Source: Deltaproteobacteria bacterium (GTDB taxonomy: Bacteria > Myxococcota > B64-G9). From it: a stretch of DNA of 32,071 bases. How positions within the stretch are numbered: the first letter of the stretch is position 1; the number at the start of each line of letters is the position of its first letter. Location of the stretch: assembly GCA_030591445.1 (NCBI GenBank), contig JAUVBB010000017.1, forward strand, positions 1 through 32,071. The letters are read 5' to 3'. The position numbers and the translations under genes were made by a program. Below the pieces are notes generated by a model. That model saw nothing but the letters and a program-made list of their open reading frames with translations, did not search any database and was not told the origin of the DNA. Shown in pieces: positions 284 through 30,606 of this stretch.

Positions 284-3200
284 TTGAGCGATGATACCTT
301 AGATACGGGAAAAGACACCTTTCCCTGCAGCTACTCCGCTGTTGAGCCAAAGACCAAGTCGGAGCGCTTGGCCCGGGGGGTCAGCGTTGGCCGCTATGTG
401 GTGATCGATTTCATGGATGCCGGGGGCATGGGGGCGGTGTATCAGGCTTTTGATCCAGAGCTCAATCGCCCGGTGGCGCTGAAAATACTTGCTATCAAGA
501 AAAAGAGATCGCGCAAGCAAGACCGGGGCGAAATTGACAAACATCGCATGCTCAGAGAGGCGCAAGCGCTGGCCCAACTGACCCATCCCAACGTGGTTAC
601 GGTCTACGACGTGGGCGTGTTTCAGGATGCCATCTTTATTGCCATGGAGTTTGTCGAAGGTCATACCCTGGGCGACTGGTTGGAGAATAACAACGCTTCT
701 TGGCAGGAAGTGCTGGCCAAAATGCTTGCAGCTGGGCGCGGATTGTCGGCCGCGCACAAGGCGGGCATCATTCACCGGGATTTCAAACCAGGAAACATGA
801 TGATCGGAGATGATGGGCGGGTGCTGGTACTGGATTTTGGGCTGGCCCGGGCGACCGAGAGCGCGGGCTTAGATGCCATCGAGCATCCGGAAAAGTCAGC
901 AGCACGGGAAAAAGCCCTGAAACTGGCGAGCACCGACAGCAAGTCGGCCATGGATTCTTCGGTGAACCTGCTTTCGGAAAATCTGACCCAGGCGGGTTCG
1001 GTCTTGGACACCATGGTTTACATGGCGCCGGAGCAGATGGCCAAAAAGGTGGTGGATGAACGATCGGATCAGTTTAGTTTCTGTGTGACTCTGTACGAAG
1101 CCTTGTTCGGTTGCCGGCCTTTTTCGGGCAAAAAGGCGAAAAGCCTTTACCGAAACATGAAGAGTCAGAAGTTTGCCAAGATCAAAGGAGTAAAGATCCC
1201 CAAGTGGCTCGAAGATGTCATCGATCGCGGCCTGGCCTTCGATGGCGAGGCGCGCTTCGAATCGATGGATCAGCTGCTTGAGGCATTGGCAAACGACCCG
1301 ACCGTCGTTCACCGAGAGCTTCGCGCCAAGCGCAGACGCATGGCCGCGATTGCGGGCTCGATTTCACTCTCCCTCTTGCTGGCCGGCTTTGGCATTTGGA
1401 ACCTAAGCAGCAAGGGCAGCCGCTTTTGCCAAGGGGCGCAAGACAAACTGGTCGGTATTTGGGACCAAGAGGTCAAGCAAGATCTGAGCCGGGCTTTTCT
1501 CCAAACCCAGAGAGCTAACGCGGAACTCACCTTTGCCCGCACCGAGGCCATCCTGGATGAACGCGCCGCTCAATGGACCGCTATCCGTACCGAGGCATGT
1601 GAAGCGACCCATGTCCATGGCGAGCAATCGGAGCAGATGCTGGATTTGAGAATGCAGTGTCTGGACAAAGCCCTGGTGGAAATGCAGGTGATGATTGAGA
1701 TTCTTACCACCCATGCCGACCCAGAAGTTTTGGACAAGGCGGTGCTGGCGGTATCGAACCTTTCCTTGCTTTCGTATTGCAGCAACCAAAAAGCTCTTAC
1801 CGCAAAGATTCCCTTGCCCAAGGATCCGGAGACCCAATCCCGGGTAAGAGTCTTGCGGGAAAAACTGGCCCGGGCACAAGCCTTGTATGAAGCCGGCCGT
1901 TACCCGGACAGTCTTTCGCTGTGCATGGAAGTCGTGCCCCGGGCGAAAGAGCTTGGCTATTTGCCCCTGGTGGCCGAAGCCACCCTTATGCTGGGCAAGG
2001 CGCAGGACGAACTTTCTGATTACGAAAAAGCCGTGACCAGCTTGCAGGAATCGGCCTGGACGGCCGACACGGCCGGTTACGACGAGCTTCGACTAGAGGC
2101 CTACAACCAGCTGATTTGGGTGCTGGCAACCCGGCTGCAGCGATTGGAACGAGTGGAAGTGGCCATCGGTGCCGCCGAGTCGGTCCTGTCCCGCATCGAG
2201 GAGACCGGAGATCTCAAGGCCCAGTGGCACAACAGCCTGGGCGCAGTCTTTTCGGAAAAAGCGGATTACCAGAAGGCTCTATATCACCATACCCAGGCTT
2301 TGCGGATATGGGAAAAGACGCTGGGCCCGGAGCATCCGAACGTGGCCAATGCCCTCAACAACCTGGGCTTGACCCATTTTGATTTGGGCAATTACGACCA
2401 AGCCATCAAGTACCACAAACGATCGCTGGCCAAGAAGATCAAGGTGCTGGGTCCCTCGCATCCGGACGTCTCTTTTTCATATAACAACTTGGGAGTCGTG
2501 TACTGGAAGAAGGGAGATCTGTCCCAGTCATTAGCGCATTATGCCAGTGCCTTGAAGATAGCCGAGCAAGTATGGGGACCGCTACATCCTACCGTTGCGC
2601 GAACCTTGAACAATCTGGGCATCGTCTATCGTCACCTGGGTGATTTTGACCAGTCACTAAAATACTACCGCCGGAGCCTGGAGATAAGAGAGAAAGTCCT
2701 GGGACCGGATCATCCAATTGTGGCGAAGGTTCTGAGTAACTTGGGGGGATTGTACGTAGACAACGGCCGCTACCAAGAGGCGCGGGCAGTCTACGCTCGG
2801 GCTTCGGCCATCTGCAAAAAGACGCTGGGACCCGCGCATCCTCAAATGGCGATTATTCTCAACGGCCTGGCGCTTTTGCATTACCATACCGGCGATCTGG
2901 AACAGGCGCGGAAAGATGCCAGTCGCACCCTGCAGATCTGGGAACAAATAGGGGGAGTCGAGCATCCCAATCTCTGGTTGGTACTCGACATTCTTGGGTT
3001 TATCTCCCTGGCTCAAGGAGACTACCCGCAGGCCAGAAAGCACCTGGAGCGGGCGCTGAAAATCTCCCTGCAATCGTTTGGTTCCGAGCACAAGTTGTTG
3101 GTCTGGGCCCACAGTGGATTGGCCGGGCTGAATACCCAAACCGGTAAAACCCAAGCAGCCATTTCTCATTTTGAAAAAGCACTTTCTGTTTGTGGCCCCA

Positions 3201-3409
3201 AAAAATGCAGCAGCAAAGAAAGAGGGCCTCACTCGAAAGCGCTATTTGGCCTGGCCCAAATACTCTGGAAAACCGGCCAGGATAACAAAAGGGCCATACA
3301 GCTTGCCCAAAATGCCCGGGAGCTGTTTGCAAAACTGCATTCCGTACAGTCCAAGCAACACCTGAAAGATGCCGAGACCTGGCTAAAAGAACACCAGATC
3401 TCCGGATAG
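284..3409 (+). CDS. Eukaryotic-like Ser/Thr protein kinase with one TM segment and extracytoplasmic TPR domain
   Basis: Likely a receptor kinase that phosphorylates Ser/Thr on cytoplasmic partners in response to a signal or protein bound by its TPR region. Kinase domain is about residues 37-335: glycine loop DAGGMGAVY at 45-53, ATP-binding Lys67 in VALK, catalytic loop HRDFKPGN at 164-171, DFG at 184-186, APE at 248-250. The segment from DFG to APE is about 60 residues, longer than usual. A basic stretch precedes a TM helix at about 353-373. Beyond it come scattered cysteines, the conserved GEQSEQMLDLRM block, and about ten 42-residue TPRs of the LGPEHPxVA (kinesin-light-chain-like) type. The start is TTG with AAAGGGGG upstream; no better in-frame ATG precedes the kinase domain. 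It is the tandem paralog of the next gene, 96 bases downstream. Two oddities: Asp replaces the first glycine of the loop, and the usual G-T before the APE motif is D-T here. Family assignment is secure; the substrate is unknown. Confidence 0.95.
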   Translation: MSDDTLDTGKDTFPCSYSAVEPKTKSERLARGVSVGRYVVIDFMDAGGMGAVYQAFDPELNRPVALKILAIKKKRSRKQDRGEIDKHRMLREAQALAQLTHPNVVTVYDVGVFQDAIFIAMEFVEGHTLGDWLENNNASWQEVLAKMLAAGRGLSAAHKAGIIHRDFKPGNMMIGDDGRVLVLDFGLARATESAGLDAIEHPEKSAAREKALKLASTDSKSAMDSSVNLLSENLTQAGSVLDTMVYMAPEQMAKKVVDERSDQFSFCVTLYEALFGCRPFSGKKAKSLYRNMKSQKFAKIKGVKIPKWLEDVIDRGLAFDGEARFESMDQLLEALANDPTVVHRELRAKRRRMAAIAGSISLSLLLAGFGIWNLSSKGSRFCQGAQDKLVGIWDQEVKQDLSRAFLQTQRANAELTFARTEAILDERAAQWTAIRTEACEATHVHGEQSEQMLDLRMQCLDKALVEMQVMIEILTTHADPEVLDKAVLAVSNLSLLSYCSNQKALTAKIPLPKDPETQSRVRVLREKLARAQALYEAGRYPDSLSLCMEVVPRAKELGYLPLVAEATLMLGKAQDELSDYEKAVTSLQESAWTADTAGYDELRLEAYNQLIWVLATRLQRLERVEVAIGAAESVLSRIEETGDLKAQWHNSLGAVFSEKADYQKALYHHTQALRIWEKTLGPEHPNVANALNNLGLTHFDLGNYDQAIKYHKRSLAKKIKVLGPSHPDVSFSYNNLGVVYWKKGDLSQSLAHYASALKIAEQVWGPLHPTVARTLNNLGIVYRHLGDFDQSLKYYRRSLEIREKVLGPDHPIVAKVLSNLGGLYVDNGRYQEARAVYARASAICKKTLGPAHPQMAIILNGLALLHYHTGDLEQARKDASRTLQIWEQIGGVEHPNLWLVLDILGFISLAQGDYPQARKHLERALKISLQSFGSEHKLLVWAHSGLAGLNTQTGKTQAAISHFEKALSVCGPKKCSSKERGPHSKALFGLAQILWKTGQDNKRAIQLAQNARELFAKLHSVQSKQHLKDAETWLKEHQISG

Positions 3410-3505
3410 CGTGACCCGGGGCCAAAGGAGTGGCGATTTCTTTGGGCTGCCCTTGAAGTTCCCAATTGATTCTGCCAAAATTTCAAGAGAAAGGAGTCGC
3501 TCCTT

Positions 3506-6370
3506 TTGGCCATAGACGACACGGAATTCGAATCAAGCTCTGACGCTAACACTATCCCAGAATCAGGGCAATCGGGAGAGGCACCCGCGGCAAAAGATGT
3601 GCCTCGGTTGGAGCGAGGCACCAGCGTCGGTCGCTATGTGGTGATTGATTTTATCGACGCCGGGGGCATGGGCGCGATTTATCAGGCTTTCGATCCAGAG
3701 CTAAACCGTCCGGTGGCTATCAAGATTCTTTCGGTTAGAAAAGAAAATAGCCAGGGGTCACTGGAAGCAGACAGAGCCAAAACCCGGATGCTCAGAGAGG
3801 CCCAAGCGCTGGCCCAACTGACCCACCCCAACGTGGTGACCGTCTACGATGTGGGCGAGTATGAAGATTCGATCTTTATTGCCATGGAGTTTGTAGAGGG
3901 CAATGACCTTAATGTTTGGCGACAGAAGCACCAGCCGTCTCGGGACGAAATGCTGGCCAAGGTGATTGACGCCGGCCGGGGTTTGTCGGCGGCCCATAAG
4001 GCCGGTATTGTGCATCGGGATTTCAAGCCGGCCAACGTGATTGTGGGCAAAGACGGTCGGGTCCGGGTATTGGATTTTGGTCTGGCCCGGGCCACGGTCA
4101 GTTCCGCAAAGAATGACGCTATTCGAGAAGCTACCGATAGTACTTCAACCAGCAGTAGGTCGCTTACCGAATCGAATAAAGACCTGCTGACCAGTTCCCT
4201 CACCCAGGCCGGTTCGGTGGTAGGCACCACTAACTATATGGCACCGGAGCAGATGGTTGGACAAGCGGTTGACGAACGTTCCGACCAGTTCAGTTTCTGT
4301 GTGACTTTGTACGAATCTTTGTACGGTTGCAGACCCTTTGCCGGCGTCAGTGTGCGTCATTTGTCCAAATGTATAAAAAAAGCGACTTTGCAGCGGCCGC
4401 GAAACAAAAAAATCCCCAAATGGCTCGATGACCTGATTCTACGCGGGCTTTCCTTCCAGAGCGCCGATCGCTTTGCCGCCATGGACGATCTACTCGAGGC
4501 TTTGCAAAATGACCCGGCGGTCATTCACCAGGAGCTTCGCAGCAAACGCAAGAGACTGTTTACTGCCATCGGTACCATTTCATTGTCATTGCTCATCGCT
4601 GGTTTTGGCATATGGTATGCGACCTCCAAAGCCAGCCGTCTTTGTAAGGGGGCAGAAGATAAGCTGCTGGGCGTATGGGACCCGGCGGTAAAGGAAAAAG
4701 TGAAGAAGGCTTTCTTGGGAACCAAAATATATTACGCCGCCAATTCCTTCGATCGGGTCGCCAAGATTCTTGATGATCGGGTTTCAAAATGGACCGTCTT
4801 GCGTACCGATGCTTGTATGGCTACCCACGATCGAGGGGAGCAATCAGAGCAGATGTTGGATTTGAGAATGAGATGTTTGAACCGGAAGCTTTCAGAAATG
4901 AACGCTCTGGTGAATCTATTTGCCACCAAAACCGATGCCAAAGTTCTGGAGAAGGCGGTGCAAGCAACGTTTGACCTCAGCCCGCTTGACCAGTGCGCGA
5001 ATGAAGAATTCCTTACCGCCGAGATGCCGCCACCCGAAGATGCAGGGCAGGAGGCGAAGGTCGAAGCGCTAAGAAAAGAACTGGATACGGTCATGGCCTT
5101 GGAGAAGTCCGGCAAATACCAAGAAGGCATGGAGCTGGCCTTGCAGTCTTTAGAGATTGCCCGAACGATCGACTACCCACCAGTGGAGGTCGAGGCCCTG
5201 TACCTGGTAGGCTCCCTGCAAGAAAGCATCGGCAAATACGAGCAAGCAGTAAAAACCCTGGTGCAGTGTAGAATCCTTGCCGATAAAACCAAGCACGATA
5301 AAATCAGGGCCAAGGCAAACAACCAACTTATTTTTGTCATCGGCTATGATCTCATTCATCTTGACCAAGTAGATCCCGTGATAGAGCGCGCGGAAGCGGT
5401 ACTGGGCCGACTTGGTGACCAGGGAGAAATCAAGGCCAGATGGCACCACAATACGGGGCTGGTGTTCCACAACAAGGGCAAGTACGACCGGGCGCTGGCC
5501 CATCTGGAGCAGGCACTCAAGATAAGGGAAAAGGTCTTGGGCGCCGAGCATCCGGGGGTGGCAAATTCGCACAACAGCATCGGGATTGTGTTTGACCAAA
5601 AGGGCGATTACAATCGGGCGCTTGCGCATTTGGAGAAGGCACAGAAGATTAGAGAAATAGCCTTGGGCCCCGCGCATCCGGATGTAGCAATTTCTCACAA
5701 CAACATTGGCATTGTGTTCTACGAAAAGGGCGAGTACCAAAGGGCGCTTTTGCATCACCAGCAGGCCATGCAGATCTGGGAAAAAGCCTTAGGTCCCGAG
5801 CATCCGGATGTGGCTGTGTCTTACAACAACATGGGCATGGTGTTAGGTCATATGGGCGAGTACGATCGGGCGCTTCAGCACAATGAAAAGGCCTTGGAGA
5901 TCTGGGAAAAAGCCTTGGGTTCCGAGCACTCGGATTTGGCCATGCCGCACAACAACAATGGGCTGGTGTACTACGATCAGGGCGAGTACGACCGGTCGCT
6001 TCTGCACTATGAGCAGGCACTGAAGATCCAGGAAAAGACCTTGGGCCCAAAGCATCCGGATGTGGCCTATCCTCTCAGCGGCATCGGTTGGATAAAAACC
6101 AAAAGAAAAAAATACCAAGAGGCAAAGAACATCTTCGAACGCGTGCTTGTCACCTGCGGCGCTGACAAATGCCAGGGAGAAGAAAAAGGACCGCTGGCCC
6201 ACGCCCAGTTCGGTCTGGCCCAGGTGCTGTTAAAGACCGGCGGAAGCCCTAAGCGGGCGATCACACTCGCCCAACAAGCCCAGGAATTTTTCCAGACCGA
6301 CAAATCCGTCCACGGTCAGAAGCTTCTAAAGGAAGCAGACGCTTGGCTGAAGAAGAACCGGGTCCAGTAG
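3506..6370 (+). CDS. Eukaryotic-like Ser/Thr protein kinase with TM and TPR domain, tandem paralog
   Basis: Same architecture and probable role as the preceding kinase. The kinase domain has glycine loop DAGGMGAIY near residues 51-59, Lys73 (VAIK), HRDFKPAN starting at His170, DFG at 190-192 and a canonical GTTNYMAPE before the C-lobe. The DFG-APE insert is Ser/Thr-rich (DSTSTSSRS) and so could be an autophosphorylation segment (inference). TM helix at about 351-371. The extracytoplasmic part keeps conserved cysteines, the GEQSEQMLDLRM block and, from about residue 658, five very regular 42-residue TPRs, then a CGADKC pair that matches CGPKKC in the first kinase. Conserved cysteines on the outer side suggest disulfides. 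Start is TTG with AAGGAG nine bases upstream, which mirrors the first gene. A T-run follows the stop, but I see no convincing terminator stem. Confidence 0.95.
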   Translation: MAIDDTEFESSSDANTIPESGQSGEAPAAKDVPRLERGTSVGRYVVIDFIDAGGMGAIYQAFDPELNRPVAIKILSVRKENSQGSLEADRAKTRMLREAQALAQLTHPNVVTVYDVGEYEDSIFIAMEFVEGNDLNVWRQKHQPSRDEMLAKVIDAGRGLSAAHKAGIVHRDFKPANVIVGKDGRVRVLDFGLARATVSSAKNDAIREATDSTSTSSRSLTESNKDLLTSSLTQAGSVVGTTNYMAPEQMVGQAVDERSDQFSFCVTLYESLYGCRPFAGVSVRHLSKCIKKATLQRPRNKKIPKWLDDLILRGLSFQSADRFAAMDDLLEALQNDPAVIHQELRSKRKRLFTAIGTISLSLLIAGFGIWYATSKASRLCKGAEDKLLGVWDPAVKEKVKKAFLGTKIYYAANSFDRVAKILDDRVSKWTVLRTDACMATHDRGEQSEQMLDLRMRCLNRKLSEMNALVNLFATKTDAKVLEKAVQATFDLSPLDQCANEEFLTAEMPPPEDAGQEAKVEALRKELDTVMALEKSGKYQEGMELALQSLEIARTIDYPPVEVEALYLVGSLQESIGKYEQAVKTLVQCRILADKTKHDKIRAKANNQLIFVIGYDLIHLDQVDPVIERAEAVLGRLGDQGEIKARWHHNTGLVFHNKGKYDRALAHLEQALKIREKVLGAEHPGVANSHNSIGIVFDQKGDYNRALAHLEKAQKIREIALGPAHPDVAISHNNIGIVFYEKGEYQRALLHHQQAMQIWEKALGPEHPDVAVSYNNMGMVLGHMGEYDRALQHNEKALEIWEKALGSEHSDLAMPHNNNGLVYYDQGEYDRSLLHYEQALKIQEKTLGPKHPDVAYPLSGIGWIKTKRKKYQEAKNIFERVLVTCGADKCQGEEKGPLAHAQFGLAQVLLKTGGSPKRAITLAQQAQEFFQTDKSVHGQKLLKEADAWLKKNRVQ
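5477..6106 (+). repeat. Five tandem 126-bp TPR-coding units
   Basis: Inside the second kinase, five in-frame 126-bp units begin at 5477, 5603, 5729, 5855 and 5981. Each encodes one 42-residue TPR of the form G-(E/D/K)-Y-x-R-(A/S)-L followed by LGxxH. The exact period shows growth by unit duplication, and the array is open to copy-number change. A degenerate sixth unit (KKYQEA) starts at 6107. Confidence 0.85.
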
Positions 6371-9716: not shown

Positions 9717-12700
9717 ATGAATCGTACTTGCTGGGGTCTGGTTTGGCTGTCCGGTCTGGTTTTTTTGCTCACGCTGGGGAGTGGGGGATGTAATTCCGGC
9801 GTTAACCCGTCGAATCCTTACGATCCGGATACCTCGGCTGAAAAACAGGCCGATGCCCAGATTACCGGCATCATTATGGGCTTGGATTCCATCACTGCCT
9901 TGCCGGTGCCCTTGACCGGTGTCGAGATAAGCTACGTCAGTACGGCTGAAGTTTTGGGCCAGTCAATGACCACGGATGACAGCGGGGCGTTTGAGTTTGC
10001 CGATGTCAGACCGAGCCGCTTGTCGATTGAGATTTTCCACGCTCAGCATATTCGCCAATTTCGGGAAATTACTTTGGGTGCGGGAGAAGAACGGGTGCTT
10101 GCTATCACCATGGATCGGCTGCCCGATGTGGCCACCGATACCGTGGGCCAGGTCAGTGGCATTGCCCAAAAAAGTGGCGAGCTCAGTCTCGAGGAGGCCT
10201 TGCAAGACCACTCGGGAATCGTGGTGGAAGTGGAAGACGCGGGGGTCAGAACGGTGACCAACGCCCTGGGGGAATTCGATCTCTTCTTGAATGCCGGCAC
10301 TTACAACCTGGTTTTTTCCGCGCCCCACTACAATCTAGCCCGGCGTAACGACGTGGAAGTACTGGCGGCCGAGGCCATTGTGGTGCCGGATAGCCCGGTG
10401 GTCCTCGACCCCAACCCTGGTTTCGTGGCCGGCATGGTGGTCTTGGAGGGCATGGACGTAGACCAACACGGCGGGATTCTGCTGAGTTTGTTGGGGGGGG
10501 CCACCGGAACCACCGCCGCCAATGGCAGCTTCCGTCTGACCAATGTTGCCGCCGGCACCTATACCATGACCGCGGCCAAGGACGGTTTCGATACCCATAC
10601 CAGTACCGGGATTGTGGTCTACGGCGGTCGCGAAACCCAGGTGCCTGACATTGATTTGCCCATCTCCCGGGGCTCGGTCGCCGGTCGGGTGATGCTGGCC
10701 GGGCAAGCGGAACACGGCGGTACCATCGTCGAATTGACCGGAACGGTTCACACCGCCCAGACCAACACCCAGGGCGCTTACGAGATTAACGATATCCCGG
10801 TGGGAACCTACGAACTGGCCGCGCGCCACGAGGGATTCGCCCGGGGCGTGGTGGGCTCGGTGCTGGTCGCGGCCGGTGAAAGCACCGCGGTCGAAGAACT
10901 GAACCTGGCGCTACGCAAGGGGGATTTTGACATCAACGGCGGAGCTCCCTATACCAACGACCCCCAGGTGACCTTGACCTTGACCAGCGACGACGCGGTC
11001 CAAATGCAAATCAGTGAATTGTCTGATTTCTCGGACGCGAGCTATGTGGCCTTTGAAGTGTCCCCGAGCTTTTTATTGAGTAACGGCGACCAAGCCAAGA
11101 CGGTGTATGTGCAATACCTGGACAGCAACGCCACCCCCAGCCAGGTGTTCTCGTCCAGCATTACCTTAGACACCCAGCCTCCCGACAGTGCCAATGTGTC
11201 GATTAATGCCGGCGCGCTCTACTCCAACAACGCCGATGGCTTGGTGAACATCACCTTTTCGGCCAGCGATGCTACTTCGGGCGTCGAAAAAACCAAGATT
11301 TCCAACGACGGTGTTTTCGATAGCGAAGTTTGGCAAGACTACGTCAACGCCAAAACCCACACTTTAGATACTCCCCTGGATGATGGACTCAAGACGGTTT
11401 ATGTTTTGTACAAGGACTTTGCCGGCAATGAAACTGCCCAGGCCGTCGAAGCCAGTATCACCCTCGACCGCATATTGCCCACGCTCAATGGCTTTGTCAT
11501 CGATTGCAACGGACAATCCGATGCCGCCCAATGCAACAGCTCGGTGGTTGAGTTGGCAATTGACGCCAGCGGCGCCAGTCGCATGGCTCTGTCCAACGAC
11601 GCCGGTTTTGCCGCTGAGATCTTCGAACCCATCGCCAGCCAGCGGGCCTGGTACTTGACTCCCGGTGATGGCGACAAGTTGGTTTGGATCAAATTGTTGG
11701 ACGAGGCCGGCAACAAAACCGATGCCGCCTTCGATGGCATCTATCTGGATCAAACGGTTCCCCAAAGCCCGACCTTGATCCTGGCCGGAGGCGCCGCCTA
11801 CGTGGCCGGGCCTCTCGATGTCCAAGCGAGCTTGACCACCGCCGATGCCGACATCGACCAGATGCGCTTTGCCGTAGATGGCACCTTGGACAGCGAAGCC
11901 TGGCAGAACTATGTCGCCGCCTTTGGGGTCGATCTGCCCGAGAGCAACGGCGAGAACCGCGTGTTTGCGCAGCTTCAGGACCAGGCCGGCAATCTCTCTC
12001 CCGTGGTGGAGGCACGTATTGTGGTGGATACCACCGCGCCGCAATTGTTCCATTTCGAAGTTGGTAACGGTTCCGGCTGGGTAAACTCCGCCGATGGCTC
12101 CACCCAGGTCAGTATCAATTGTGCCGACAACCTGGTTCTTGATGCGGAAATGAATTTGCTGGTGGAAGACGAAGGCGCGCAGGTGCTGTACCAAGGCACT
12201 TATGCCGATGTGGTTCCCATAGTGTTGGGGGCGGGCGAAGTGGCCAAAACCGTTACTGCTAGTTGTAGCGATCCGGTGGGCAACCTTACCGCCTCTGCTC
12301 CGGTTGCGGTTTCGGTCGATCATAGCCCGCCTAGCATCAACTCGTTTACCCTCAACGGGGGGGCTGCCAACGAGCCACTCAGTAGTCAATCCATCACCAT
12401 TCACCTGCTAGACATCAGCGATAACTTTTCGGGAGTATTGGCCACGGCACTGTCTGATGCCAGCTTCGACTGCGCGACGGCCAACTACGCGTATCCTGGT
12501 GCCGGTGACATCGGCTACACTTTTTCCTCCGGGGAAGGCGCGCGCACCATATATCTGTGTGCCATGGATACCGCCGGCAACCGGACCAGCTCCCCGGTGG
12601 CGGCCAACAATACGGTCATGTTAGACACCGTGCCTCCCGAGATGCCTTCTTTGGTCTTGGCCGGCGGGGCGGCCTATGTGAATACCCATCTTACCCTTTC

Positions 12701-15700
12701 GGTCTCCCTGCTCTCTGCCGATGCCGCCTTCATGCGCTTTGCCGTAGACGGCACTCTGGACGACGAAGCTTGGGTGCCCTACAACGCAGCCAGCACCTTG
12801 GACCTGCCGGTAGGCGACGGGGCCAAGACCGTGTTGGCCCAGGTGCTTGATGCCGGCAACAATGTGTCTCCCATTGCCCAAGCCCAAATCACCGTGGATG
12901 GCACGGCCCCGCAGATAAGCAGCATCAGCGTGGGCGATGACTCTGGTTGGGTTACCACTGCCGATGGCTCTACCCAACTTCACCTCAGTTGCAGTGATGC
13001 CCTGGTTCCGGATTCCGAACTCAGCCTGGTGGTGGTGGATAATTTGGCCAATACCCTTTTTAGCGGTGACTACCTCGACGTGGTTCCCATTGTCTTGGGG
13101 GCGGGCGAAGTGGCCAAAACCGTCACTGCCAGCTGCAGCGATCCCATGGGCAATAGCATTAGCTCGGCGGCGATTGCGGTCTCGGTCGACCACAGTGCGC
13201 CTACCATCAACTCATTTAGCTTGAATGGGGGCGGGGCCGACGAGCCGACCAACAACCCGGCCATTACCCTGCATTTGCTCGACATCACCGACAACTTCTC
13301 CGGGGTTATGGCCACTGCCCTGGCCGAGACTTCTTTTGATTGCGAGACGGCCAACTATGCCTATCCCACCTCTGGCGATGTCGGCTACAGCTTGTCCGCC
13401 GGCGAGGGCAGCCGCCGACTGTACCTGTGTGCCATCGATCTGGCCGGCAACGTCAGCGCGGCGGCGGTGGCCTCGGACAATACCGTCTTTCTTGATACCG
13501 TGGTTCCCGATATGCCGGTGCTGGAACTGGCCGGTGGGGCGGCCTATGTCGATACCCATCTCACCCTTTCGGTCTCCCTGCTCTCTGCCGATGCGGCCTT
13601 CATGCGTTTTGCCACTGACGGCACCCTGGACGACGAAACTTGGGTGCCCTACAACGCAGCCGGCACGCTGGACCTGCCGGTAGGCGACGGGGCCAAGACC
13701 GTACTGGCCCAGGTGCTGGATGCCGGCTCCAATGTATCTCCCATTGCCCAAGCCCAGATCACCGTGGATGGCACGGCCCCGCAGATGAGCAGCATCAGCG
13801 TGGGCGATGACTCCGGTTGGGTCACCACAGCTGATGGCTCTACCCAACTTCACATCAATTGCAGTGATGCCCTGGTTCCGGACTCAGAACTCAGCCTGGT
13901 GGTGGTGGATAATTTGGCCAGTACCCTTTTTAGCGGTGACTACCTGGACGTGGTTCCCATTGTCTTGGGAGCGGGCGAAGAAGCCAAAACCGTCACCGCC
14001 ACCTGCAGCGATCCCATGGGCAATAGCATAAGCTCGGCGGCGATTGCGGTCTCGGTCGACCACAGTGCGCCTTCCATTAACTCGTTTAGCCTGAATGGGG
14101 GCGGGGCCGACGATCCTACCAACAACCCGGCCATTACCGTGCATTTGCTCAACATCACCGACAACTTCTCCGGGGTCATGGCCACCGCCTTGGCCGAGAC
14201 CTCCTTTGATTGCGCGACCGCCAACTATGCCCATCCCACCAGTGGCGATGTCGGCTACAGCTTGTCCGCCGGCGAGGGCAGCCGCCGACTGTACCTGTGT
14301 GCCATCGATCTGGCCGGCAATGTCAGCGCGGCGGCGGTGGCCTCCGACAATACCGTCTTTCTTGATACCGTAGTCCCCGATATGCCGGTGCTGGAACTGG
14401 CCGGTGGGGCGGCTTATGTCGATACCCATCTCACCCTTTCGATCTCCCTGCTGTCTGCCGACGCAAGCTTTATGCGCTTTGCCATAGACGGCACCCTGGA
14501 CGACGAAGCTTGGGTACCGTACAACGCGGCCGGCACGTTGGACTTATCCGCAGGTGACGGGGCCAAGACCGTACTGGCCCAGGTGCTGGATGCCGGCTCC
14601 AATGTATCTCCCATTGCCCAAGCCCAGATCATCGTGGATGGCACGGCCCCGCAGATGAGCAGCATCAGCGTGGGCGATGACTCCGGCTGGGTCACCACTG
14701 CCGATGGCTCTACCCAACTTCACATTAGTTGCAGTGATGCGCTGGCCTTGAATGCAGAGATCAACCTGACCATCATCGATGGAGACATGGCGACTCTCTA
14801 CAGTGGAGACTATCTGGATGTGGTTCCCATCGTCTTGGGCGCGACCGAAGAAGCCAAAACTGTCACCGCCACTTGCAGCGATCCCATTGGCAATAGCGTC
14901 AGCTCGGCTGCCATTGCGGTATCGGTTGACCACACGGCGCCCAGTATCAATTCTTTCACCCTCAACGGGGGCGCGGCCAACGAGGCCACCGCCAGCCCCT
15001 CGGTCACCTTGCATTTGTTGGATGTGGATGACAATTTCTCCGGGGTCAGTGGCACGGCATTGGCAGAGACTTCTTTTGATTGCACCACCGCGACTTATTC
15101 CTACCCAAGCTCGGGGGATGTCGGCTTCACGCTCTCGGCCAGCGACGGTCAGCGCTATGTTTATTTGTGTGCCCGCGATGTGGCCGGCAATGTGACTGCC
15201 TCCGCGGTGGCTTCGGACAATGCCGTGGATTTGGATACCCAAACCCCGCTGGCGCCGACCGTTGTTTTGGCCGGCGGAACCGACATCACCCGGCTCACCA
15301 GCATTGGCCTGAGCATCACCCCACCCGAGGTCGGATTGACGCTAGAACTTTCTGGCGATATCGACGAAGTGGGCAGTTATTCGGCCGATGCGCCGCCGGC
15401 TACGGTAACGCTTGCCGGGGATGACGGCCAGTTGACGGTTTCGGCCATTGTAATTGATGCCGCCGGCAACCGCTCCAGCAGTGCCTCGGACTGGATTACC
15501 CTTGATACCGAAGCCCCCTATTTGTACGCGGTGGCTATCGACGACAACGAGCCTTTCGCCACCACCGCGGATGGCGAGGTCACCCTGACGCTGGCCGCCT
15601 CCGATGCCCTAAGCGGCGTCAATCGCATGCAGATATCAACCGATGGCGTCTGCGACACGGAACCGGTGGTGGATTTTGAGCAGGAGGTCACCTTCTATCT

Positions 15701-18695
15701 GGATGACCCGGCCAACCAGGGTCTGAAACATGTCTATGTGTGCTTCCTGGATATCGCCGGCAATGTCTCCGACCCGGCCCATGACCAGGTAAGCCTTGAT
15801 TATACTCCGCCCGTCATCAACAACTTTTCGCTCAATGGCGAAACCCCCGACGAGCCCACCAATTCGCGTGAAATCCTTGCCCGGGTCGCTGTCATCGATG
15901 GCATCGCCGGGCAGGCGGCGGTGGCCTTATCGGATGCCAGCTTTTCTTGCAGCGATGCCCAGTACACCTATCACCCCTTTCAGAATCATCCCTTCTTGCT
16001 CTCGGAGGGAGAGGGTCAGCGCTTCTTGTACCTGTGCGCCCAGGACGGCGCCGGCAACTACACGGCCTCGGCGGTGGAGTCGACCAACGCGGTGTGGCTC
16101 GATACCACCGCCCCCGAGACGCCCTCCATGCAAGTCGCCGACTTCGACGGCGACGGTTTTGCCCTCAGCGAGGAACAGGTGGAACTGCGCTGGAACTTCA
16201 CCGCCGAAACCAGTGGCTATTTGATCCGACGCTTCGTGGTTGACGTCGATAGTTCCACCCAACAAATTGCCGATCTCGATGCGTCGGTCCACGGATTGAT
16301 CGACGACGTTACGGCCACGGTGGGAAATACGCATCTGTATCAAATTCGTGCTTACGATGCGGTGGGCAACGTCTCAAACTGGTCTTCGGTGGTGGAGGCC
16401 AACCCCTTCGATCCCATCGATGGCGTATTCTGGATTCGCTCCATCGACCTGTTGAAATTCACCTTTACCCCCAATACGGGCACTTTCTGGCAACAGGCCA
16501 CCTATTGGTGGAGCAACGTCTTATACAGCTCGTATTACCAGGTGCTGGGCAGCAATATTTTGCAGTGGGAAAGACCAGAACCTCCCGAGCGCCAGGTGAA
16601 CGAACGGTTGATGTTCAGAACCGCCAACCAGGACAACTCGCTGGTGTATGACACCTCGGTCTCCCTGCGCATCAATCAAACCAGAACCCTCGACAGCGAT
16701 GGCGACCCCGGAAAATTTACCTCCCTCGCCGTCGGTTCCGATCGAGTTGTGCACATCAGTCACTTTGATGATGATACCGACGATCTCAAATACACCACCA
16801 ACAAGCCCGGCTATTGGGTGACCTACACGGTTGACTCCCTCAATGACACCGGCACCTCGACCTCCCTGGCCCTAGACAGCAATAACAATGTGCACATCAG
16901 TTATCACTACAATACCGATAACGATTTGCGCTATGCCACCAACGCTTCCGGTGCCTGGGTGGTAACCACCGACATTGACACCGCTGCCAACGTAGGCGAT
17001 TTCTCCAGTATTGCGGTGGATAGCCAAGATTATATCCATATCGGCTACTACGATGTCACCAATACCAATCTCAAATATGCCACCAACGCGCCCGCCGGCA
17101 CTTGGTCCACCACCACCGCGGTCAATACCGGAGACTCACAAGGCCGATTCTGCTCGCTGGTGCTCGACAGCAACGACAATGCCTACATCGCCCATTTGAA
17201 TACCACCACCAAGAATATGGAACTGGCGACCAATGAATCCGGCGCGTGGGCCAGCCCAACGATCTACGGGCCCATCACTGCCACGGTCAACATATCCATG
17301 GCCATTGATCTGGCCGATAAGTTGCACATCAGCTTCTCCCCGTCACCTGGTTCTCTGTACTATGGAACCAACGCCAGCGGTGGCTGGGCGTTCGAAGAAG
17401 CCGATGGCCCCATGTCGGGTTACGGTGGCACCTCCATCGCGGTCGATGCCCAAAGCAAGGTGCACATCAGCCACCGCGAAGCCGATCATACCGAGCTGCG
17501 CTATACCACCAACCTGTCCGGGATCTGGGAATCCATCACCGTCGATAACGCAGGAGATTTGGGCCTGTTTTCTTCCCTAGCGGTAGACAACCTGGGCATC
17601 GTACATATCAGTTACAACAACACAGTGGATAAGCAGCTTCGCTATGCCAACGTGTTCACCTATCCCTGGCGAACCGAGACCCCCGACACCAGCGGAAACA
17701 AAAATTTCTCTCCCGCGGTGGCAGTCGACTCCAAGGGACATACCCACATCAGCTACATGGATACCATCGATGGTTACTTGACCTATGCCACCAACCAGGA
17801 CGGCAGCTGGCAAATCAGCGACATTGATAAGAGCGCAGTCGTGGGATTTTCTTCCTCTATTGCTATCGACGGCAAGGACTTCATCCATATCAGTTATTAT
17901 GATCAGACCGACAGCGCCCTGAAGTACATCAACAACACCGAAGGTGTTTGGACGGCCACCACCTTGGATTCGGAAGGCATCGTCGGCCAACTGACTTCTC
18001 TGGCCATCGACAGCAATGGCAAAATCCATATTGCCTACCGGGACAACACCAACCAGCGAGTGAAATATATCAACAATGTCAAAGGTTCCTGGGTGGAAAC
18101 GGCCATCTATGCCACCGACAACACCACCCTGGTTGGCATCTCCCTGGACATAGACAGCAAAGACAATATCCACATCGTCCATTATCACAACCACAACCTG
18201 TATTATTCCACCAACGCCGGCGGCTCTTGGGCCACCATAGCCGTCGATACGCCGGTACTGCCGGCTTATACCGGTATCGATCCGGCCCTGGCCATAGACA
18301 GCAACGATTTTATCCATATCAGTTACCGAGATGGCAATAACATGACCTACCTTACCAACGCATCGGGCTCACTGAAAAAAACAGAAATTGAAGTGGCGGG
18401 CGTATCCGGAAATGACTCCGATATTGCCATTGATGAAAACGACAACGTTCATATCATCTACTCCAATACCGACCTGCAGGACCTGCACTACGCCACCAAC
18501 ACCGCTGGCTATTGGCGAGTGAGCGAAATCGATGTGGTAGGCTCGGTCGGCACCAACCCCGCCGTCACCATCGACGATTTTGGCAGAATCCACACCGTCT
18601 ATCAGGACACTGACAATGCCAACATTGTCTATTCCTACGGCAAATTCGAAGGCTTCATCCCCGCCTCCTCCGACACCTTGACCTCACCCTTCTAG
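9717..18695 (+). CDS. Giant modular lipoprotein: regulatory-like domains, Ig-like array, Fn3 and double beta-propeller
   Basis: About 2992 residues. Start ATG 9717 was chosen over the upstream in-frame codon at 9648 because it gives a clean lipoprotein signal (lipobox SGGC, Cys25) with GGGGA seven bases upstream. After the lipid cysteine comes NPYDP, then about four carboxypeptidase-regulatory-like beta-sandwiches (about 45-400), a long Ig-like region (about 400-2128) with motifs such as FDINGGAPYTND and DTxPP linkers, one Fn3-like domain (about 2135-2232) and 14 propeller repeats of about 47 residues (about 2325-2982) with the pattern SLAxDSNxxxHISYxDxxxxxLxYATNxSGxW. Probably surface-exposed or periplasmic and binding glycans or proteins; no enzyme active site was seen. 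Residues about 680-1841 hold four copies of one module. The paralog at 23022-29426 has the same order with one module. Confidence 0.93.
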   Translation: MNRTCWGLVWLSGLVFLLTLGSGGCNSGVNPSNPYDPDTSAEKQADAQITGIIMGLDSITALPVPLTGVEISYVSTAEVLGQSMTTDDSGAFEFADVRPSRLSIEIFHAQHIRQFREITLGAGEERVLAITMDRLPDVATDTVGQVSGIAQKSGELSLEEALQDHSGIVVEVEDAGVRTVTNALGEFDLFLNAGTYNLVFSAPHYNLARRNDVEVLAAEAIVVPDSPVVLDPNPGFVAGMVVLEGMDVDQHGGILLSLLGGATGTTAANGSFRLTNVAAGTYTMTAAKDGFDTHTSTGIVVYGGRETQVPDIDLPISRGSVAGRVMLAGQAEHGGTIVELTGTVHTAQTNTQGAYEINDIPVGTYELAARHEGFARGVVGSVLVAAGESTAVEELNLALRKGDFDINGGAPYTNDPQVTLTLTSDDAVQMQISELSDFSDASYVAFEVSPSFLLSNGDQAKTVYVQYLDSNATPSQVFSSSITLDTQPPDSANVSINAGALYSNNADGLVNITFSASDATSGVEKTKISNDGVFDSEVWQDYVNAKTHTLDTPLDDGLKTVYVLYKDFAGNETAQAVEASITLDRILPTLNGFVIDCNGQSDAAQCNSSVVELAIDASGASRMALSNDAGFAAEIFEPIASQRAWYLTPGDGDKLVWIKLLDEAGNKTDAAFDGIYLDQTVPQSPTLILAGGAAYVAGPLDVQASLTTADADIDQMRFAVDGTLDSEAWQNYVAAFGVDLPESNGENRVFAQLQDQAGNLSPVVEARIVVDTTAPQLFHFEVGNGSGWVNSADGSTQVSINCADNLVLDAEMNLLVEDEGAQVLYQGTYADVVPIVLGAGEVAKTVTASCSDPVGNLTASAPVAVSVDHSPPSINSFTLNGGAANEPLSSQSITIHLLDISDNFSGVLATALSDASFDCATANYAYPGAGDIGYTFSSGEGARTIYLCAMDTAGNRTSSPVAANNTVMLDTVPPEMPSLVLAGGAAYVNTHLTLSVSLLSADAAFMRFAVDGTLDDEAWVPYNAASTLDLPVGDGAKTVLAQVLDAGNNVSPIAQAQITVDGTAPQISSISVGDDSGWVTTADGSTQLHLSCSDALVPDSELSLVVVDNLANTLFSGDYLDVVPIVLGAGEVAKTVTASCSDPMGNSISSAAIAVSVDHSAPTINSFSLNGGGADEPTNNPAITLHLLDITDNFSGVMATALAETSFDCETANYAYPTSGDVGYSLSAGEGSRRLYLCAIDLAGNVSAAAVASDNTVFLDTVVPDMPVLELAGGAAYVDTHLTLSVSLLSADAAFMRFATDGTLDDETWVPYNAAGTLDLPVGDGAKTVLAQVLDAGSNVSPIAQAQITVDGTAPQMSSISVGDDSGWVTTADGSTQLHINCSDALVPDSELSLVVVDNLASTLFSGDYLDVVPIVLGAGEEAKTVTATCSDPMGNSISSAAIAVSVDHSAPSINSFSLNGGGADDPTNNPAITVHLLNITDNFSGVMATALAETSFDCATANYAHPTSGDVGYSLSAGEGSRRLYLCAIDLAGNVSAAAVASDNTVFLDTVVPDMPVLELAGGAAYVDTHLTLSISLLSADASFMRFAIDGTLDDEAWVPYNAAGTLDLSAGDGAKTVLAQVLDAGSNVSPIAQAQIIVDGTAPQMSSISVGDDSGWVTTADGSTQLHISCSDALALNAEINLTIIDGDMATLYSGDYLDVVPIVLGATEEAKTVTATCSDPIGNSVSSAAIAVSVDHTAPSINSFTLNGGAANEATASPSVTLHLLDVDDNFSGVSGTALAETSFDCTTATYSYPSSGDVGFTLSASDGQRYVYLCARDVAGNVTASAVASDNAVDLDTQTPLAPTVVLAGGTDITRLTSIGLSITPPEVGLTLELSGDIDEVGSYSADAPPATVTLAGDDGQLTVSAIVIDAAGNRSSSASDWITLDTEAPYLYAVAIDDNEPFATTADGEVTLTLAASDALSGVNRMQISTDGVCDTEPVVDFEQEVTFYLDDPANQGLKHVYVCFLDIAGNVSDPAHDQVSLDYTPPVINNFSLNGETPDEPTNSREILARVAVIDGIAGQAAVALSDASFSCSDAQYTYHPFQNHPFLLSEGEGQRFLYLCAQDGAGNYTASAVESTNAVWLDTTAPETPSMQVADFDGDGFALSEEQVELRWNFTAETSGYLIRRFVVDVDSSTQQIADLDASVHGLIDDVTATVGNTHLYQIRAYDAVGNVSNWSSVVEANPFDPIDGVFWIRSIDLLKFTFTPNTGTFWQQATYWWSNVLYSSYYQVLGSNILQWERPEPPERQVNERLMFRTANQDNSLVYDTSVSLRINQTRTLDSDGDPGKFTSLAVGSDRVVHISHFDDDTDDLKYTTNKPGYWVTYTVDSLNDTGTSTSLALDSNNNVHISYHYNTDNDLRYATNASGAWVVTTDIDTAANVGDFSSIAVDSQDYIHIGYYDVTNTNLKYATNAPAGTWSTTTAVNTGDSQGRFCSLVLDSNDNAYIAHLNTTTKNMELATNESGAWASPTIYGPITATVNISMAIDLADKLHISFSPSPGSLYYGTNASGGWAFEEADGPMSGYGGTSIAVDAQSKVHISHREADHTELRYTTNLSGIWESITVDNAGDLGLFSSLAVDNLGIVHISYNNTVDKQLRYANVFTYPWRTETPDTSGNKNFSPAVAVDSKGHTHISYMDTIDGYLTYATNQDGSWQISDIDKSAVVGFSSSIAIDGKDFIHISYYDQTDSALKYINNTEGVWTATTLDSEGIVGQLTSLAIDSNGKIHIAYRDNTNQRVKYINNVKGSWVETAIYATDNTTLVGISLDIDSKDNIHIVHYHNHNLYYSTNAGGSWATIAVDTPVLPAYTGIDPALAIDSNDFIHISYRDGNNMTYLTNASGSLKKTEIEVAGVSGNDSDIAIDENDNVHIIYSNTDLQDLHYATNTAGYWRVSEIDVVGSVGTNPAVTIDDFGRIHTVYQDTDNANIVYSYGKFEGFIPASSDTLTSPF
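11755..15240 (+). repeat. Four tandem copies of a 290-residue Ig-like module
   Basis: In-frame units run 11755-12630 (876 bp, most divergent), 12631-13500, 13501-14370 and 14371-15240 (each exactly 870 bp). Each encodes LAGGAAYV, the D-G-T-L-D-(D/S)-E-x-W segment, a GWVTTADGSTQ segment, the DVVPIVLGA segment and an FSLNGG/FTLNGG domain with paired cysteines. The second to fourth copies are nearly identical over long stretches: 13741-13800 and 14611-14670 differ at one base of 60. This points to recent duplication or gene conversion and to a region at risk of assembly collapse. Confidence 0.92.
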
Positions 18696-23020: not shown

Positions 23021-23043
23021 TTCAGAAGGGTTCCACCTGCTCC
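23021..23043. repeat. 23-bp direct repeat, right copy (3' end of the giant lipoprotein gene)
   Basis: Exact partner of 21506-21528, same orientation. Read on the minus strand it encodes the last residues EQVEPF and the stop of the second giant lipoprotein. Confidence 0.85.
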
Positions 23044-26000
23044 GGCGGGTGCGAGGTCAAGAGGCCCTGGAAGATTCCTTGGGTATAGGCCAGATCGGAT
23101 ACCCCGTTTTTTCGGTAGGCGATATGAACCCGATCCAGAGAGTCTAAGCCAATGCTGGTATAGCTGCGTTGCCCCAGACCCACGGTCGGGTCTAGCTCGG
23201 TGCTGCGCCAAGTGCCATGGGCATTGGTGGCATACATGAGATAGCCCCAATCGTCTTGCACATAACTGATGTGGACCTGATCCAGGCTGTCGATGGCAAT
23301 GGAGGTAAACCGGCCCACGCCAAAGGCCGAGGCCACGATGGTGACTTCCCAGCTACCCGAGGCGTTGGTGGCATAGCGCAGGTCGTTGTAGGTGTTGTCG
23401 TAGTAGGCAATGTGCACTTTGTCCGCCGAATCGATGGCCATGGAGACAAAGGAGCCCACATAACTGTCCGAATCGATGACCGTCTCCACAAAGGAACCCG
23501 ATCGGTTGGTCAGGTAGTGCACGCCTTCTTGGCTGCCCGCATCATAAACGATGTGCACGTAATCCTGGCTGTCGATGGCCAGGTCGTTGTGCACCTCGCC
23601 GGAAGACGATAGCGAGACCAGGTCCTGGATGATCCACGGCGCACCCGGTCCCGGTATGCGGTAGGCGTAACGCATTGCCGAAAACATGGCACTGAAGTAG
23701 GACAGGTGCACGAATCCCGCCGAATCCACGCCGATACCGCTGGGTACCTGGCCGGCGGTGAAAACCTGTTCCACTGTCTCCAGGGTCCAAGGCCCATAGG
23801 CATCGGTGGCATATTCGATGGCAGAAGTGGACTGGTTGCCGTAGCTGATATGGAGAAGATCGGACTGGTCGACAGTGATGGAAGCAAACAATCCCACCCA
23901 GTGGCCCATAAAGTCCCCGTCGTCCACGGTCTCGATGGTCCAGGCGCCCGAAGCGTTGTGGGCGTGCTCCAGGGTGACGGTGGTTTCATCAAAATAAGCC
24001 ACGTGCACCACATCGTTGCTGTCCAAGGCCAACGACGCATAAGAGCCAGTGCTGCCGGCCGAGTCGATGATCTCGTCCGACCAAAGGGGTTTGGCAACAA
24101 TCGCGTGCAACAGATCCTGGTATTCGGCCGAGTGGTAGGTGAGATGGGGGCGGCCGGTGCTGTCCAAGGCGATGGCGGCGAACTGTCCCACATCGCCGGT
24201 AACGTGCAGGTCCATGGTCTCCCAGGAGCCGCTCTCGTTGGTGGCATAGCGCAAATCGTTCAAGCTCCCCACCCCGTAACCGATGTGGGCCTTATCGTTT
24301 TCGTCCAGCACCAAAGAGGTGTAATAGCCGGCGGCGTCGGCGGCGTCGGCCACCTGGATCACCCAGGCTCCGGAGGCGTTGGTGGCGTAGTAGAGATCGT
24401 CAAGACGCAGGTAGGAGATGTGAACCTTTCCCTGGTGGTCTAAGGCCAGCGATGAGTAGCTGCCGGGACTGCCAACAGCGTTGTCCACGGTTTGGGTCAC
24501 CCACGCGCCGGAGGCATTGGTGGTGTACTCGAGACTGGTCGGCGCGCCCCAGTCCTTGTGACTGATGTGCACCTTGTCGGCGCTGTCTATGGCCAGCGAA
24601 GAATACTGGCCCGGCCAATCGGTATCGTCCGCTAGTTCGGTGACCCAGCTGCCCCCGGCGTTGTTGGCCACCTGCAGATCCCGGTCTATCTCCCCATAGA
24701 AGCTGATCCAGGCGGCGCCGGTGCTGTCGATACCGATGGAGGTGTCTCGGTAGCCCGGATCGCCCGTGTCCTCTACCAACTCGTTGGCCCAGGAACCGGA
24801 AGTGTTGGTGGCGTAGCGTATGTCACGGTTGGTGTAATCCTGGTAACAGATGTGCACGAAGCCGAGCGGATCCACGAAGATGTCGGTGGACCGGCCGGTG
24901 TCGCCCACGCTATCAACCGTGACCGCCACCCAGGTGCCCGAGGCGTTGGTGGCATATTTCAGGTCGGCGTTGGTCGCATCATAGTAGCTTACGTGCAAGG
25001 CGTCGTTGGCATCGATGACCATGGCGGAATACAGGCCCACGTCATCTACCGAATCCACCGTCAGCCGGGAATGGAAGCCCAAGGGCACCACGCTTTGGTA
25101 GACCAAGGAATTGTCCTGGTTTCGGGTCAAAAAAAGGAGTTCTTCGTTGAAGCGGGTAGGGTCCACGGCCGGCCCCGGGCGCAACCAGGAAAAGGTGTTG
25201 TCGATCATGGGGTCCCGGTTGGGCATCCCCAGCAGGTCTTCATTTTGATAAGTGATGCTCATGGTGAAGGTGCCCGGATTGGGTTTGAACGCATAGCGAA
25301 AATCGTCCTTGTCCCGGATCCAGAAGGCGTATTCCACCGGATCGAAAGTCAGCGCGTCTACCACCAGGGACCAGGGTGATTCGTTGCCCACTTCGTCAAT
25401 CGCCTTGATGCGGTAGTACAATCTCTTGCCCACCTGGGCGCTCACGTCGTCAGCCAGGTTGATTTGGGCCGGAAGAATGTTGCCGTCCCGCAGCACGAAG
25501 TCACCCTCTCCCTCCACGAAACGCTCCAACACCAGATGATCGGTGTCCGGGGGCACGCTCCAGGCCAGTTCCACCGTGTCGCGGGCCAAGGCGAAGCCGT
25601 CGCCGTCGATGTCCGCCACCTGCAGGGCGGGGATGGCCGGCGAGTTGGTGTCGAGTTCCACCGTGTTGGAGGCCAGCGCCGCGCTCAGCACGTTGCCGGC
25701 ATCGTCTTTGGCGCATAGGTACACTTGCCTCAGGCCGTCGCCGGGAGACAGAATGAACGGAATATCGGCCTGGGCCGGGTAGACGTATTGGGCGCTATCA
25801 CAATTGAACGAGGCATCGGCCAAAGCGCTGGCTACCCCCACCCGGTCGGACACCGCGTCGCGCAGGTCTACCCGCACCACCACGTCGCGCGAATTGGTGG
25901 GCGAGGCGGGCACCCCGTCGTTGAGTCGATAACCGACGATTTCAGGCGGGGTGTAGTCCAGGGTGATGGAATCTTCGGCCGCATTGGCCACCGTGGTGGC

Positions 26001-30555: not shown

Positions 30556-30606
30556 CGCCGGCGTGATCAGCGGGTTGTTGGCATGCTTGTTTATGGCGAT
30601 TCCTTT

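Follow-up and report, generated by a model that had tools for sequence, protein, structure and literature searches.

The window analysed here is a stretch of 32,071 nucleotides (positions 1 to 32,071 of contig JAUVBB010000017.1, assembly GCA_030591445.1) from a bacterium of the Myxococcota (B64-G9), and it corresponds to contig C36 of a draft genome of 6.86 Mb in 610 contigs. It carries two giant paralogous genes, P1 and P2, and the subject of this study is an array of repeated immunoglobulin (Ig)-like domains, which is four units long in P1. The two proteins have the same domain order: namely, CarboxypepD_reg stretches (four in P1 and four in P2, by Pfam), then Ig-like domains, and then C-terminal repeats of 47 residues. 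Their features are as follows.

9717-18695, plus strand: P1, giant lipoprotein-like gene; 2992 residues counted from ATG 9717, with the open reading frame opening at TTG 9648
9717-9791, plus strand: signal-peptide-like stretch of P1, ending in a lipobox-like cysteine (from the translation; lipobox by eye)
9855-10916, plus strand: CarboxypepD_reg-like domains of P1, four matched stretches (Pfam PF13620, E 2e-30; outer limits approximate)
10917-11747, plus strand: single Ig-like domains N1-N2-N3 of P1, preceding the array
11748-12623, plus strand: unit 1 (u1), A-B-C, 292 residues, 876 base pairs (bp)
12624-13493, plus strand: unit 2 (u2), A-B-C, 290 residues, 870 bp
13494-14363, plus strand: unit 3 (u3), A-B-C, 290 residues, 870 bp; mosaic, u4-like over about nucleotides 1-361 and u2-like in its 3' part
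14364-15233, plus strand: unit 4 (u4), A-B-C, 290 residues, 870 bp
15234-16100, plus strand: terminal diverged unit of P1, D-E-C', 289 residues (unit profile E 1.8e-53 over positions 1-290; separate clade, 100/100)
16674-18641, plus strand: C-terminal 47-residue blades of P1, 14 deduced and read as two seven-bladed propellers (from blade motif spacing and alignment to P2; limits approximate)
23022-29426, minus strand: P2, paralog of P1, 2134 residues
23067-25034, minus strand: two seven-bladed beta-propellers of P2 (model residues 207-523 and 520-862, Z up to 29.7)
25653-26528, minus strand: terminal diverged unit of P2, 292 residues (unit profile E 1.1e-47)
26529-27395, minus strand: single A-B-C unit of P2, 289 residues
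27396-28235, minus strand: Ig-like domains N1-N2-N3 of P2, preceding the unit

Unit and domain borders were set by splitting P1 and P2 at D-x-x-P boundaries, which gives four tandem units of ~290 residues in P1 (11748-15233) and one in P2. Each unit is composed of three different Ig-like domains, A (90-94 residues), B (97 residues) and C (100-102 residues); in both proteins, B and C each contain two cysteines, and A contains none. While adjacent domains of P1 are 18-40% identical, those three apart within u1-u4 are 53-94% identical. Direct repeats in the window are spaced by exactly 870 bp, and the autocorrelation of the P1 protein peaks at a lag of 290 residues with 801 matches, which is far beyond chance.

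An original prediction, made from the DNA letters of the window, had taken the 290-residue module as one Ig domain, but each unit comprises three of 90-102 residues. It had placed the array at 11755-15240, with the right length of 3486 bp but 7 bp off the exact position, and the 870-bp period that it had confined to the last three units is real but holds all four in register. In terms of the near-identity it had proposed, u2 and u3 agree well (92.0% in nucleotides and 92.8% in amino acids over 290 residues), but u4 does not (79.8% in DNA and 79.7% in amino acids to u3, 77.0% in DNA to u2), and u1 even less so (60-64% in DNA and ~60% in amino acids to the other units of P1). Stretches of exact identity between two units reach 78 bp at most (u2/u3), with 76 bp for u3/u4. 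Among u2, u3 and u4, nonsynonymous divergence (dN) is well under synonymous divergence (dS), with a dS of 0.224 and a dN of 0.044 for u2/u3. The size difference between the paralogs had been correctly attributed to three extra modules: 677 residues precede the array in both proteins, the array has 1162 residues in P1 and 289 in P2 (+873), and the part after it has 1153 and 1168 residues, respectively, so that 873 - 15 gives the difference of 858 residues with P1 starting at ATG 9717. To the predicted count we add a diverged fifth unit, which follows the four units of P1 and has a counterpart in P2.

The unit u3 is a mosaic of its two neighbours. Informative sites along the units reveal a break near nucleotide 361 of the unit; on its 5' side, 31 sites have u3 equal to u4 and 20 have u2 equal to u3, whereas the numbers on the 3' side are 12 and 129. 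The maximum chi-square of 58.9 was reached in none of 20,000 permutations, and third codon positions alone also gave 0/20,000. Trees conflict in the same sense as the sites, with u3 grouped with u4 in the 5' part (99/95 for protein, 94/89 for DNA) and with u2 in the 3' part (73/71 for protein, 83/91 for DNA). The ages of the two junctions overlap, as dS is 0.25 (0.14-0.39) for u3/u4 in the 5' part and 0.17 (0.09-0.26) for u2/u3 in the 3' part. Because u3 thus combines the 5' part of its downstream neighbour with the 3' part of its upstream neighbour, it is the product expected of an unequal crossover that adds a unit. The units u2-u4 of P1 form a clade with 100/100 support.

Further paralogs are found on other contigs of the source genome. 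C460 has one A-B-C unit and the terminal unit, and C407 has a single A-B-C unit without the terminal one. C406 has two full units and then ends inside a third, while C268 starts within a C domain similar in sequence to that of C406 and carries the remainder of such a protein. Over 234 nucleotides, the initial C domain of C268 differs at 19 positions from u2 of C406 and at 35 from u1 of C406. Sequence repeated exactly from C406 u2 makes up the final 105 bases of C406 and the initial 80 of C268, and this is a spot where a short-read assembly would break; we infer that C406 and C268 belong to a single gene of three or more units, although the contigs are not joined. The two full units of C406 are 82.1% identical in amino acids and form a 100/100 clade apart from the units of P1, and the A-B-C block has therefore been amplified twice, independently. 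Terminal diverged units are matched by the unit profile in P1, P2, C460 and C268 and form a 100/100 clade of their own; an ancient duplication therefore preceded the recent ones.

Regarding the stalk, a model of the A-B-C unit (u2) is mostly beta (predicted local distance difference test score, pLDDT, of 79.7), and the first Foldseek matches of this model are the BIg domains of SiiE (PDB 2yn3 and 2yn5; 15-18% identity). SiiE BIg is also the sole PDB sequence match with an E-value of 0.1 or lower (0.0016). The fold of the propellers was searched with a model of the P2 C-terminal part, and the propellers of P1 were placed by alignment to P2. Both P2 propellers match seven-bladed PLL-type lectins, at Z up to 29.7 (root-mean-square deviation 2.7 over 296 residues, 9% identity), but propellers of other families come close to these scores, and no PDB sequence match at E 0.1 was obtained for the propeller part; a glycan-binding tip would be a guess from the fold. 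When a double spacing in the blade motif is taken as one missed motif, the blade count of the tip is constant, with 14 blades deduced in all five C-termini (P1, P2, C460, C268 and C407). In the C-terminal part of C460 (locus L047), repeats of 60-72% identity occur at lags of 94, 141 and 188 residues, multiples of the 47-residue blade spacing, as if its blades had been recently amplified or homogenised with their number still at 14.

The N-terminus of P2, like that of P1, has a signal-peptide-like stretch and a cysteine in what we take to be a lipobox, judged by eye against the general motif. A motif NPYDP follows the lipobox-like cysteine at 9813-9826 (plus strand) in P1 and at 29329-29342 (minus strand) in P2, and it is also present in C406, C407, C454 and C460. 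Since all six exact DNA-pattern matches in the source genome are at N-termini of this protein family, NPYDP may be a sorting or export tag.

Taken together, we propose, with a probability of roughly three in four, that P1 and P2 are paralogous proteins of anchor, stalk and tip, and that the stalk of P1 was lengthened by tandem expansion of the A-B-C block, with u3 as a crossover hybrid. The anchor would be the lipobox-type N-terminus followed by the CarboxypepD_reg domains, the stalk would be formed by the Ig-like domains, and the tip by the two C-terminal seven-bladed propellers. P2 would keep one copy of the 290-residue super-repeat, and P1 would have reached four by in-frame tandem expansion, the latest step being an unequal crossover of two misaligned units that left u3 as a u4/u2 hybrid. 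The three extra units would then push the tip further from the cell with the tip itself unchanged. Lipid anchoring, surface exposure, the rod-like shape of the stalk and the importance of its length to the cell are what we infer from these features.

Several points weigh against this proposal. The lipobox of P1 departs from the perfect consensus, VIA-align puts SiiE at Z 9.4-9.6, below receptor/FN3 tandems at up to 10.6, and the model of the P2 C-terminal part has a low overall confidence (pLDDT 66.1). As to the history of the array, the 3' support for u2 with u3 is only 83/91 (DNA) and 73/71 (protein), the 5' part of u3 has mixed sites (31 versus 20), u1 is about as distant from u2-u4 as are the units of other paralogs, and a single clade for the four units of P1 is neither shown nor rejected (approximately unbiased test, p-AU 0.218). 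Furthermore, gene conversion without any change in number could also give the mosaic of u3.

This last process leads to the first alternative, in which gene conversion instead of crossing-over gave u3 its likeness to u2 and u4 and the unit number is old and stable. The similarity along the units is indeed patchy, and the dS of u2/u3, 0.17-0.30, does not indicate a very recent event; nonetheless, the order of the two parts in u3, 5' from the downstream and 3' from the upstream unit, is what crossing-over predicts when a unit is added, and a separate amplification is seen in C406, so that we regard gene conversion as somewhat unlikely. An ancestral long array kept by P1, with units deleted from P2, C460 and C407, appears improbable. 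In its favour, u1 is ancient and could derive from an array that already had several units in the ancestor, a single clade for the four P1 units is neither rejected nor shown at the p-AU given above, and the terminal diverged unit is an ancient second copy in P1, P2, C460 and C268 but not in C407. Against it, there are two separate 100/100 clades, one of u2-u4 within P1 and one of the C406 units; most extra copies therefore postdate the split of the paralogs. Finally, an assembly artefact (a chimeric or duplicated contig) is very unlikely as the cause of the array: despite the 610-contig draft and the ends of C406 and C268 inside arrays of the A-B-C unit, the four units differ by 8-40% in DNA, stay in frame, share exact matches of at most 78 bp and have, in u2-u4, a dN well under dS, and u3 differs by 6-8% from its presumed parents over the relevant parts and is therefore no simple u2/u4 chimera. 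Among the phylum arrays described below, contigs end inside the array in 4 of 10 with recent repeats compared with 10 of the remaining 51, a difference that lacks significance (p 0.22).

The preferred history, expansion by crossing-over, also bears on the suggestion in the original prediction that unit number changes by recombination and may differ between strains. Within the source genome, change by recombination gained support from the mosaic u3 and the independent amplification in C406/C268, but at a dS of 0.17-0.30 the units u2 and u3 are less alike than an array of frequently changing length would predict. The nine genomes compared in the source family, the source genome included, are of nine different genera. 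Profile searches at the family, order and phylum levels found the A-B-C unit at a comparable score in no other genome among the 195 examined; the canonical units of the source genome score E 4e-131 to 1e-153, and the best match elsewhere 4e-32. In a scan of named genomes for the array, 33 stretches matched the pattern and three loci were kept, none of which matched over the whole unit.

The step of three domains was then considered across the phylum. With the three-domain unit profile, 61 Ig arrays were gathered from 67 phylum loci and the window, excluding arrays of fewer than five domains (L097+8958 and L098+0 cover overlapping parts of a single gene). Pairs of domains with 60% identity or more numbered 1/678 at a separation of one domain, 0/603 at two, 28/531 at three, 0/470 at four, 9/410 at five (8 of these in the array L107), 10/354 at six, 2/303 at seven, 0/255 at eight, 2/215 at nine, 2/187 at ten and 3/140 at twelve. 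The loci of this first survey were taken from the listed matches of the three-domain profile, with a possible bias; a single-domain profile built from the P1/P2 domains, with its best matches listed, reduces this bias, which remains in part. Among its listed matches with frames of at least 1200 residues, one new contig, G010:C98, was recognised by eye. Fourteen further loci gave five more arrays (66 in total), none of which has a pair at 60% or above. Such a pair is present in 10 of the 66 arrays, with the best pair three domains apart in seven, and six, twelve and five apart in one each. These ten arrays are from eight genomes and eight families; two belong to source-genome paralogs and two to the genome G163. 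A model-free lag scan of 20 of 60 phylum loci, with the five best lags of each, also gave peaks of three domains or more in Ig arrays (for example, lags of 276, 305, 309, 524 and 564 residues). The exception to the three-domain step is L107 (G165:C218), an Ig array that clearly repeats every five domains (lag 524), with an identity of as much as 93% over 90 residues.

For comparison, 37 arrays from 40 loci of the same phylum were gathered with the single-domain OmpL47-type family, in which 60/342 adjacent pairs are at least 60% identical and the best pair is one apart in 12 of 22 arrays, two apart in eight and four apart in two. At this level of identity, the best pair lies at a multiple of three in 9/10 Ig versus 0/22 OmpL47-type arrays (Fisher p 3.6e-7); the numbers are 16/20 versus 5/36 at 50% (p 1.4e-6) and 6/7 versus 0/10 at 70% (p 6e-4), in tests that treat arrays as independent and were run after the pattern had been seen. 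The OmpL47-type set is not matched to the Ig set: one family (f13) supplies 30 of the 40 loci, several loci resemble orthologs of one another, and the domains are shorter (~86 residues). The contrast may reflect either domain class or lineage. In arrays without recent repeats, the three-domain period is not significant (25/39, p 0.11); with all arrays and only pairs below 60%, it is found in 39/59 (p 0.018) and, for the OmpL47-type arrays, in 12/29 (p 0.46).

One ancestral A-B-C block shared across the phylum in cyclic order was considered and is unsupported: the B type is almost never called outside the source genome, and forward versus reverse domain orders number 77/91, 39/42 and 17/14 at margins of 3, 6 and 10, respectively. 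As the arrays of the phylum do not have the A, B and C types in common, the three-domain step seems to have arisen repeatedly. We put forward, tentatively and at somewhat less than even odds, that in one class of Ig-like bacterial stalks recombination adds a fixed three domains per step, hardly ever single ones, and that this step has a repeated origin in different families, which would suggest a selected constraint such as interface matching or the avoidance of misfolding. Copying of three domains at a time would allow the long DNA homology required for a change in length to coexist with unlike neighbours.

The OmpL47-type family also touches P1 and P2 themselves. Domain E of the terminal unit, at 15504-15797 (plus strand) and 25959-26258 (minus strand), scores as the NCBIfam 'OmpL47-type beta-barrel domain'. 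It is the best stretch for NF047446 (OmpL47-type domain), whose curated cut-off of 40 bits both whole proteins exceed, P1 with 80.2 bits and P2 with 43.5; the curated cut-off of 250 bits for NF047441 (OmpL47 equivalog) is not reached (59.7 and 17.5 bits). Since domain E lines up, in register, with the array's Ig-like domains, the NCBIfam name may misdescribe the fold of this family. Elsewhere in the window, there are two adjoining Ser/Thr kinase genes with TPR tails (284-6370, plus strand; Pfam), the second of which contains 4.8 copies of a 126-bp tandem repeat (5456-6066, 73% matches), an AAA_14/DUF4143 ATPase gene between P1 and P2 (20225-21442, plus strand), and two adjoining GH130-type (mannooligosaccharide phosphorylase-like) genes (29548-32058, minus strand).

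Among known systems, which are compared here on the basis of excerpts of the cited sources, SiiE resembles P1 in its giant Ig-like stalk, and its BIg domains lead the Foldseek list for the A-B-C model, but SiiE is a substrate of type 1 secretion whereas P1 and P2 have a lipoprotein-like N-terminus and a tip of two propellers. The E-G5 unit of SasG, a Gram-positive protein, has two domains with folds other than Ig-like; the unit of P1, in contrast, has three Ig-like domains and belongs to a lipoprotein-type protein. What the two share is a stalk unit of more than one domain, in SasG the 'E-G5 repeat units' (PMC9704523). SasG is one of the Periscope Proteins (SasG, Rib, Sgo_0707 and CdrA), the stalk length of which varies through highly identical repeats, breaking the usual rule that neighbouring domains are less than 50% identical (PMC8201768, PMC9704523). 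Like P1, these are long monomeric proteins with a stalk of tandem folded domains and a proposed change in length by recombination between similar repeats; their neighbouring domains are, however, highly alike, whereas those of P1 are 18-40% identical with only every third domain alike, and their repeat number varies between strains while P1 is known here from one genome. As for the repeat identity of this class, u3/u4 (79.7% in amino acids) and u1 (~60%) are below it, unlike u2/u3 (92.8%) and the two C406 units (82.1%). The BAP of Acinetobacter is likewise giant, built from different types (A-D) of Ig-like modules with little mutual similarity, and its size differs between strains, and its authors bring up the misfolding argument (PMC4647330); a regular three-domain period is not described in the excerpts of that source, and the modules are compared by description only. 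Higher-order repeats of several domains are also known from nebulin (PMC1553488) and titin, but these are eukaryotic muscle proteins. According to Bjorklund et al., domain repeats often expand by several domains per step, and selection against aggregation may favour larger steps, but IG domains mostly expand singly, which is the opposite of the pattern here (PMC1553488).

In the titles and abstract openings listed by literature searches, we found no description of a three-domain step in bacterial Ig stalks, which does not prove its absence. Near-identical neighbours in stalks are a puzzle, in that high DNA identity aids length variation but should favour misfolding, and a three-domain super-repeat would meet both demands. 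If true, this would be a simple, testable rule for how one class of bacterial stalks lengthens, with the OmpL47-type arrays of the same phylum as a comparison class under the other rule. Repeat stalks of variable length are established, and bacterial Ig stalks that lengthen three domains at a time would be a novel variation on them, not a separate category.

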